Assembly: GCA_029219345.1 (NCBI GenBank)
Contig: JAQXTF010000090.1
Span: 1-38,528, forward strand
Direction: 5' to 3'
DNA from: Eggerthellales bacterium
Lineage (GTDB): Bacteria > Actinomycetota > Coriobacteriia > Coriobacteriales > Eggerthellaceae
DNA: 38,528 nt
Part shown: in pieces, positions 6,321-37,617 of the stretch
Layout: each line of letters begins with the position of its first letter
Numbering within the stretch: the first letter of the stretch is position 1
The notes under the pieces: generated by a model
What the model saw: only the letters and a program-made list of their open reading frames with translations
Databases searched by the model: none
Told to the model about the DNA's origin: nothing
Translations under genes and position numbers: made by a program

Positions 6321-6559
6321 TGCAGAAACGTGCGATATGTTGCCATCGGGCGGCGGATGGGGCGTTTTTTGGGGCCTCAGATACAGAAATGAACGATATG
6401 TTGCCGCGCGAAGGCGTTTTTAGAAGAATCGTTCAACGTTTTCCCAGGTCAGTATTTTTCTAACGTCTTCCCTCGGCAACTTATCGTGCATTCTTGTGTA
6501 AAACGGGTCGATTTTGCGCCCGGTTGTCTTCCTCCGGCAACTTATCGTGCGTTTTTGCA
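6321..6559. repeat. Symmetric 239-bp intergenic element, copy 1
   Basis: Four copies of a 24-nt motif with core ACGATAWGTTGCC are arranged forward at 6321-6344 and 6382-6405, and inverted at 6475-6498 and 6536-6559. The spacing is 24-37-24-69-24-37-24. A second element at 35230-35468 has exactly the same lengths although the spacers differ in sequence. It fills most of the 344-bp gap between the YhgE-like gene and the minus-strand small membrane protein gene. If transcribed, the outer and inner pairs could each form near-perfect 24-bp stems. Confidence 0.9.
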
Positions 6560-27479: not shown

Positions 27480-27514
27480 TGTGACAGAAATGCCCCGGGC
27501 GCTTTTGTCATATT
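27480..27514. repeat. 35-bp dyad motif centred on CCCGGG, copy 1
   Basis: TGACA and TGTCA arms flank GCCCCGGGC. The two 14-nt arms match at 11 positions. A second copy at 37583-37617 is identical at 32 of 35 positions in the same orientation. As plus-strand RNA two of the three arm mismatches become G-U wobbles. It lies 22 nt beyond the TauE/SafE stop and about 140 nt upstream of fhaA. Confidence 0.85.
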
Positions 27515-29985: not shown

Positions 29986-31191
29986 TTGAGCGACCAACGA
30001 GATTATAGGCAACCCCGTCAGCGCAAGGCGCCTGCTCAGAGAGGGGATCTGCGTCAGCGCCCTCCGCGCTCCAGGCGTACCGCTGAAGATGTGAGCACCG
30101 AGCGCCGCGGGACGGAACGCCGCAGGTCGGAGCGCCGCGGGACGGACCGTTCTGGATTGGAACGCCGCAGGTCAGAGCGCTCTGGTCGGCGCGAGATAGC
30201 GGATGGCTGTCGTCCTTCTTCTGCCCAGGGAAGGCGCGCGACAACGCCGCGCCGTCCCGCTGCCGCCGCTTCTGCCCCTATGGTCATTGATGTGCGCTGG
30301 CTGCTCATTGCCCTTGCGGTGGTTATTCTGGTGGTTGTTCTTGTTGTTCGAGGTTGTTCCTCCCCCGAGCCTGACGTTAGCGCTTCTGCTGTGACTTCTT
30401 CCAGCGCCAGCCAAGAGGCGCCTGCTCCTCCTGAACCCGAGGTAGATTGGGAAGAGGTGAGCGCTGCGGTATATTCCCTGCTGGATGACGATTACGCTGA
30501 GGCGTTGCTGCAGGCGGCGCAGACCGATGCGGACGCCCGCTGGATTGCTTGCCATACGGGAGATTACACCGAGGATGGCTCTATTGTGCAGTACAAGCTG
30601 CTGAAGTTGGCGGCCCTGGAACCCCAGGCGCGTCCCTTTGTGCGCAACTGGCCCGAGCTGTATTCCCAGGATAAGGGCGAACCCTGCGATTCTTCCTGGA
30701 GCGGCCGCGTTCCCCACCTTTACCAGTGGGATCCGCGTTGGGGCTACACTTTGTACTGCAGCACCACTTTCGCCCTGACGGGCTGCTGCCCCACGTCCTT
30801 CGCCATGGTGTATCAGGCATTGACGGGCGCGGCGGATCAATCCCCCTATGACATGGGCGTTCTTGCCAGTTCGTGGGGTTATATGGATGAGATGAACGGC
30901 ACCGATGTGGGCTTCTTCTTTGCGGGCGCTGATGAATTCGGCTTCTCGTGCTGGCAAATTTCAACTGATTCCTATGCCCTTACGTCTACGTTGGCTTCGG
31001 GCAATCTGGTGATTTGCAACGTTGGTCCCGGCGATTTCACCACGGGTGGGCACTTCATTGTTCTGGCGGGCCTTGACGGTAACGGCGACCTGGTGGTGAA
31101 CGATCCCTTCTCGGTGGAGCGCTCTAACCGTTCCTGGGATGTGGATACGGTGCTTTCTCAAACCAAGGCTTTGTACGCCTTCTCTTGGTAA
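29986..31191 (+). CDS. Membrane-anchored C39-like cysteine peptidase with Arg-rich N-terminal repeats
   Basis: A 401-residue protein. The cytoplasmic N-terminus (1-100) is extremely Arg-rich, including three 10-residue tandem repeats (about 40-69; ERRGTERRRS-type). One membrane helix (104-123), a linker rich in Ser, Ala and Pro, and a C-terminal Peptidase_C39_2-like domain (about 245-401) follow. The putative triad is Cys268 in LTGCCPTSFAMVY, His356 in GGHFIVLAG and Asp373 in VNDPF. C39-like enzymes cleave peptides outside the membrane. The start is TTG at 29986, placed 6 nt after AAGGA; an ATG at 29980 abuts the Shine-Dalgarno and is unlikely. The substrate is unknown. Confidence 0.82.
   Translation: MSDQRDYRQPRQRKAPAQRGDLRQRPPRSRRTAEDVSTERRGTERRRSERRGTDRSGLERRRSERSGRREIADGCRPSSAQGRRATTPRRPAAAASAPMVIDVRWLLIALAVVILVVVLVVRGCSSPEPDVSASAVTSSSASQEAPAPPEPEVDWEEVSAAVYSLLDDDYAEALLQAAQTDADARWIACHTGDYTEDGSIVQYKLLKLAALEPQARPFVRNWPELYSQDKGEPCDSSWSGRVPHLYQWDPRWGYTLYCSTTFALTGCCPTSFAMVYQALTGAADQSPYDMGVLASSWGYMDEMNGTDVGFFFAGADEFGFSCWQISTDSYALTSTLASGNLVICNVGPGDFTTGGHFIVLAGLDGNGDLVVNDPFSVERSNRSWDVDTVLSQTKALYAFSW
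30101..30190 (+). repeat. 30-bp in-frame tandem repeat (three units)
   Basis: Three 30-nt units beginning AGCGCCGCGGGACGGA or AACGCCGCAGGTC encode the Arg-rich decapeptides in the C39-like protein. The unit boundaries keep the reading frame. Confidence 0.75.
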
Positions 31192-35165: not shown

Positions 35166-35218
35166 GATTTGGGCGGGCATTTTGGCCCTCCAAGAACCTG
35201 CTCCCTCGCACGCGGCGC
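35166..35218 (+). repeat. 3'-end dispersed repeat, copy 2 (downstream of PiT gene)
   Basis: It begins 7 nt after the PiT stop and matches copy 1 (1818-1869 on the minus strand) with 49 of 52 identities and one inserted base. The TTGG/CCAA hairpin core is conserved. Confidence 0.8.
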
Positions 35219-35229
35219 CCAATAATTCC

Positions 35230-35468
35230 TGCAAAAATGAACGATATGTTGCCGCTGGCCAACGTATGGGCCATTTTTTGGGGTTTTGAATGCAGAAATG
35301 AACGATATGTTGCCGAGTTAGGGCGTTTTTTGGAGGAGCGCTTGACGTTTCCCCAGGTCAGAAATTTTCAAAAGCTTCTTGTCGGCAACTTATCGTGCAT
35401 TCTTGTATAAAACGGGCCATTTTTCGGCCCGTTTGTCTTTCTTCGGCAACGTATCGTGCATTTTTGCA
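35230..35468. repeat. Symmetric 239-bp intergenic element, copy 2
   Basis: The 24-nt motif occurs forward at 35230-35253 and 35291-35314, and inverted at 35384-35407 and 35445-35468. All spacings are identical to copy 1 (37, 69, 37). The right spacer contains a terminator-like hairpin AACGGGCC / GGCCCGTT followed by TTGTCTTTCTT. It fills the gap between the PiT gene and the minus-strand histidine kinase gene. Confidence 0.9.
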
Positions 35469-37582: not shown

Positions 37583-37617
37583 TGTGACAGATTTGCCCCG
37601 GGCGCATTTGTCATATT
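37583..37617. repeat. 35-bp dyad motif centred on CCCGGG, copy 2
   Basis: Same motif as at 27480-27514 (32 of 35 identical), here in the divergent region between the response regulator and the VTC gene, 38 nt before the VTC start. Confidence 0.85.

Follow-up and report, generated by a model that had tools for sequence, protein, structure and literature searches.

The window (the whole stretch of 38,528 nt analysed here) contains a 239-nt direct repeat at 6321-6559 (copy 1) and 35230-35468 (copy 2), which aligned without gaps at 78% identity. In the window, the neighbouring genes code for a PiT transporter, a histidine kinase and an HD/GGDEF protein; a further neighbour is an ORF without family match. 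In both copies, two direct 25-nt arms on the left (L1 and L2) are followed by two inverted arms on the right (R2 and R1), with intervening segments of 36, 67 and 36 nt (Table 1). Copies 1 and 2 differ at 5, 1, 1 and 2 of the 25 positions in L1, L2, R2 and R1, respectively, and at 13/36, 22/67 and 8/36 positions in the left, middle and right spacers. The first-pass annotation had described two copies with a shared geometry and diverged spacers, which is borne out by the ungapped 239-bp alignment and the retained arms. The spacer lengths it gave, 37 and 69 nt, are indeed equal in the two copies, and become 36 and 67 nt when the arms are taken as 25 nt, the motif bounds of that reading being slightly shorter. 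The islands CCAGGTCAG and TTTTC that it noted in the middle segment are present in both copies. It had also argued against a recent duplication of the element, a possibility that was rejected since the spacers of the two copies have diverged too far. Elsewhere in the window, a 50-nt repeat in inverted orientation (1818-1867 and 35169-35218, 94% alike) has one copy adjoining element copy 2 and is unrelated to the arms. The 35-nt repeat TGTGACAGAAATGCCCCGGGCGCTTTTGTCATATT (27480-27514 and 37583-37617, 91% alike) is found close to ORF starts, and tandem 15-bp units (GAGCGCCGCGGGACG) occupy positions 30100-30174 within an open frame.

Table 1. Features of the two element copies in the window.
Feature	Position	Strand	Basis or remark
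Copy 1, outer left arm L1	6321..6345	+	repeat alignment, arm word scan
Copy 1, inner left arm L2	6382..6406	+	arm word scan, copy alignment
Copy 1, constant core AACGTTTTCCCAGGTCA	6435..6451	+	eight-copy alignment
Copy 1, inner right arm R2	6474..6498	-	arm word scan, copy alignment
Copy 1, outer right arm R1	6535..6559	-	arm word scan, copy alignment
Copy 2, outer left arm L1 (TGCAAAAATGAACGATATGTTGCCG)	35230..35254	+	arm word scan, copy alignment
Copy 2, inner left arm L2	35291..35315	+	starts 61 bp from the L1 start
Copy 2, constant core GACGTTTCCCCAGGTCA	35344..35360	+	identical word in 36/138 Eggerthellaceae genomes; centred in inverted repeats
Copy 2, inner right arm R2 (inverted)	35383..35407	-	87 bp between 20-nt arm-word starts, L2 to R2
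Copy 2, right-spacer terminator-like hairpin	35410..35434	+	not kept in the other copies
Copy 2, outer right arm R1 (inverted)	35444..35468	-	arm word scan, copy alignment

In total, eight related copies, one of them truncated, were identified in the window genome, an incomplete draft assembly and the sole genome of its genus in the comparison set. Genome-wide scans were carried out as pattern searches, and the arm word (≤3 mismatches) gave 32 matches in this genome, nearly all inside elements, compared to one for the reversed control; its recurrence is therefore not due to chance. The starts of the 20-nt arm words are 61, 87 and 61 bp apart, the single exception having a 60, and the eight-copy alignment contains one internal single-base gap besides frayed ends and the truncated copy. 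Among the seven full-length copies, identity is 86-88% in the arms, 54-60% in the spacers and 65% in the middle segment. At arm position 18, the left and right arms differ in every full copy, with the states swapped in the copies on C86 and C6. The locus L012 (contig C131 of the window genome, ~1180-1455) is a hybrid with one window-type arm (CGGCAACATATCGTACG), inner arms of another type (TTTTTGCATTT) and the same core.

The inverted arms, the convergent location of copy 2 and its terminator-like hairpin would be consistent with an RNA-level element, that is, a bidirectional terminator or structured RNA at convergent gene ends with the arms as stems. As had been proposed, copy 2 carries, in its right spacer, a hairpin (AAACGGGCC-7-GGCCCGTTT; -15.4 kcal/mol, z -4.9) that is stronger than its counterpart in copy 1 (-8.5 kcal/mol, z -0.9). 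This hairpin is, however, particular to copy 2 and is not kept by the other genomic copies. The structural role suggested for the stems found no such agreement. Over the eight copies, changes affecting both sides of the arms numbered 2, compared to 5.8 in shuffles, and mismatches are nearly constant at the arm pairs 11/229, 18/222, 67/173, 72/168 and 79/161, one pair being mismatched in all eight copies. No compensatory stem changes in the arms were thus supported by the eight-copy alignment when set against shuffles, and a selected hairpin is unlikely because the arms lack such changes and carry consistent mismatches. Alignment of all genomic copies, suggested earlier as a check, accordingly recovered the conserved spacing and the variable spacers and not the paired stem changes. 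The element had no match in an Rfam covariance-model search, and a hairpin or RNA role was rejected on these two grounds. Considering also that the spacing follows the DNA helical repeat (see below), which an RNA stem would not need, the RNA-level explanation is largely refuted and very improbable.

The middle island extends to a core, GNCGTTTYCCCAGGTCR, which was found as an exact word in 36 of 138 Eggerthellaceae genomes and 19 of 48 genera, with up to 25 occurrences per genome and one in total for the reversed control. At most of these loci the core is central between inverted arms of 20-50 nt, and more than 20 unrelated-looking arm types surround it, several of them in the same genome. Since the core word served to collect most loci, core conservation at these loci is given by construction, and the arm-fetched loci L234-L252 provided the independent check. 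When fetched by their arms, the family-B loci of genome G003 mostly still had the core, on either strand, a few with a changed base. The core is also present in Corynebacterium, where two arm types are arranged in tandem runs about a CCCAGGTC core; the arrays of Corynebacterium sp. NML98-0116 (L150 and L136) alternate the arm types GCACCAAATTCC and AGTGCCAAAGGACGCAA, each with the CCCAGGTC core. The 239-bp element is thus a member of a large class of intergenic repeats in Actinobacteria that is apparently undescribed. Among the closest known systems are the BIME/RIP (RIB) elements of enterobacteria, in which REP palindromes are arranged around an IHF site; RAYT-linked REP/BIME elements are defined by palindromes of 20-40 nt, a GTAG/CGTC-type tag and a RAYT transposase. 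Like BIMEs (PMC2817692), the actinobacterial elements are short, multicopy and intergenic, often by gene ends, with inverted repeats on both sides of what is presumably the site of an architectural protein, but they belong to another phylum, have other sequences and are distinguished by a constant core, many arm families and quantised spacing.

The proposal that distance or helical phase is under selection is strongly supported by our comparison of arm-to-core distances, for which arms were aligned within one arm family. In 206 within-family comparisons, the distances on either side differed by 0, 1, 10, 11, 20, 21 or 42 bp, with nothing between. For a held-out test, 20 further regions were fetched, and the 11 new elements that they yielded gave differences of 0, 1, 10-12, 19-21 and 30-33 bp in 63 comparisons. 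When changes of more than 1 bp were counted along a spanning tree of 99 elements in 12 multi-member arm families, 18 of 21 fell within 1 bp of n x 10.5 (23% expected, p ~1.7e-9); the three off-phase changes were two of 61 bp, representing a swap of inner and outer arms in the window family, and one of 12 bp. The inner edges of separate arm families also follow a 10-11-bp comb. In G003, the family-B arms are 122 or 123 bp apart in 27 copies with spacers ~59% identical, and pairs with spacers less than 45% identical still hold this length to 1 bp. Core and arms are thus helically phased, and since a low indel rate alone cannot yield the whole-turn pattern, we infer that arm and core occupy a fixed face of the helix. 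The first-pass annotation had named spacer indels and missing compensatory changes as evidence against its reading; the latter weighs against the stem idea, whereas the indels seen within the class are of helical-turn size and therefore support phasing. Dispersed-repeat spacing quantised in DNA turns constitutes natural-sequence evidence for a selected helical phase between protein sites, and we know of no report of such spacing in BIME/RIP-type elements.

The elements are mostly intergenic, with 23 in convergent, 19 in tandem and 3 in divergent contexts according to crude ORF calls; copy 2 lies in a convergent setting. In Adlercreutzia, two copies located at unrelated positions have a sharp-ended block of ~200 bp in common, and a sister species has kept both, showing that units were dispersed and then inherited. 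Homology between dispersed units stops at the outer arms. As short non-coding units with terminal inverted repeats and several dispersed copies, the elements agree with the basic layout of MITEs, which they also resemble in their size of ~100-240 bp, lack of an ORF and homology ending at the arms (PMC10969869). They differ from MITEs by the conserved internal core and the selected spacing, and neither an autonomous partner nor a target duplication was found: inspection of the flanks of the window-genome copies gave no clear target-site duplication, and no autonomous transposon with the same ends was found. The arms in G003, a complete genome, are confined to pairs 122-123 bp apart, on which ground an autonomous transposon carrying them was rejected. 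That the whole element came directly from a phage or plasmid was likewise rejected, as there was no blastn match. Neutral relics of ordinary MITEs, whose constant length would merely reflect few indels, would also appear as dispersed, intergenic, multicopy units with sharp-ended inverted repeats. Indels do occur, however, and in helical-turn sizes only; moreover, the spacers change much faster than the arms and the core, and one core is common to families with unrelated arms, making neutral relics scarcely credible. The slow evolution of arms in old copies means that each copy has been under constraint, whether in a lineage that is still mobile or as an element serving the host.

The core word was also found in attachment regions of phages and ICEs: in cluster-K-like mycobacteriophages it lies upstream of tyrosine integrases, and it is further present in an element integrated at the guaA 3' end. 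In the guaA element (L206, L207, L209, L210 and L212), 330 bp around the core are identical across several genera and families, and L211 and L220 represent a second, related version. CAGGTCAG occurs 12 times in 4.7 kb comprising the int-upstream (attP) regions of 12 diverse actinophages, or 2.5/kb compared to 0.18/kb in mycobacteriophage DNA (Poisson p ~1e-10), while the looser C[AT]GGTC[AG] gave a p of only 0.008. A simple position-weight comparison of attP regions with the whole Eggerthellaceae core gave a weak match, the CAGGTCAG half alone being shared. Upstream of int in D29, two CAGGTCA sites, out of three in 6 kb, flank the tRNA att core, similar to the IHF sites of lambda attP. The phage form, GCAGGTCAGAGCGTTT, was identified in 52 viral contigs (L320-L371), as against 2 for the reversed word, yet only ~9 have it within ~1 kb of a tyrosine integrase detected by tblastn, and the flanking genes are mixed. 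A core specific to integration sites was therefore rejected, and since the phage form is common also outside integrase loci, the core is a general actinobacterial site. In a dozen viral contigs examined, GCAGGTCAGAGCGTTT is intergenic, in some with repeated arms of its own (L320, L322 and L347). The chromosomal elements share with attP of tyrosine-integrase phages (lambda layout; D29/L5) the combination of element-specific arm sites and a host-factor-like site, and with actinophage attP regions the word CAGGTCR, but they have symmetric inverted arms, are multicopy and are without a crossover core or adjoining integrase, neither of which was found at the window elements. Literature searches returned unrelated sequences only for the core word and, judging by titles, nothing relevant for CAGGTCA together with attP. 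The core could alternatively be a strong DNA gyrase site, with the element, like BIMEs and the Mu centre, serving as a supercoil sink. Its closeness to attP sites, which are known to need supercoiling, and the preference of the elements for convergent gene ends are in line with this, but inverted family-specific arms phased to the core and a strict asymmetric 17-nt core word are left unexplained, and a gyrase site is very improbable.

Judging from sequence comparison, actinobacterial IHF is the main candidate for a factor bending the core. The Actino_IHF gene was present in all 41 Coriobacteriia genomes tested, including the window genome, with mIHF and SCO1480 as solved relatives. mIHF is needed for integration of L5 and has nevertheless been reported without sequence preference, a long-standing gap that could therefore be tested by one binding experiment on the motif. 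Binding by actinobacterial IHF (mIHF/sIHF, NF041260, PDB 6tob and 4itq) is reported to lack sequence specificity and, for mIHF, not to be specific to attP (PMC6155035, PMC10028186, PMC3724605), and IHF is thus a candidate only. We tentatively suggest that CAGGTCR with T-rich flanks may be a sequence-specific site, so far unrecognised, of actinobacterial IHF or of a different bending protein universal in Actinobacteria, and that phage intasomes may use it along with a whole class of chromosomal elements with variable arms and helix-set geometry. The motif offers a concrete candidate site for a host factor required by actinophage integration.

Taken together, the element has the appearance of a DNA scaffold on which protein and DNA form a precisely folded complex. 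We favour a model with a recombinase-like protein on the arms and with the core bent by a host factor, and on balance consider it probable that this is a short dispersed element assembling a folded nucleoprotein complex, with arms for a family-specific recombinase-like protein and a core for a shared bending factor. The inverted arms, two per side in the window element and one in many relatives, are the predicted sites of a family-specific recombinase/transposase-like protein, and the asymmetric core GNCGTTTYCCCAGGTCR is a putative site of a DNA-bending host factor common to Actinobacteria. The bend at the core would join the two arm-bound proteins, so that arm and core would need a fixed helix face, and the complex may serve, or may once have served, mobility. 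An arm-binding protein was not found. A serious share must be given to a host-beneficial, BIME-like element of chromosome architecture, a possible though less probable explanation, in which the phased complex would stay where it is, forming a topological or transcriptional boundary between genes, and be not, or no longer, mobile. Old diverged copies have kept arms and core, which dead mobile relics would not, and the distribution of gene contexts, although based on crude calls, agrees with a host role, as do the vertical inheritance of copies at orthologous loci by two Adlercreutzia species and the element pairs beside molybdoenzyme operons. A host role is less easily reconciled with the several unrelated arm families per genome, differing between genera as selfish elements would, and with the many Eggerthellaceae genomes without the core. 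The pairs in question (L295, L296 and L298) come from three genera and consist of same-orientation elements 5.6-9.6 kb apart; the operons between them, named from sequence starts, are molybdoenzyme-like and often have a regulator.
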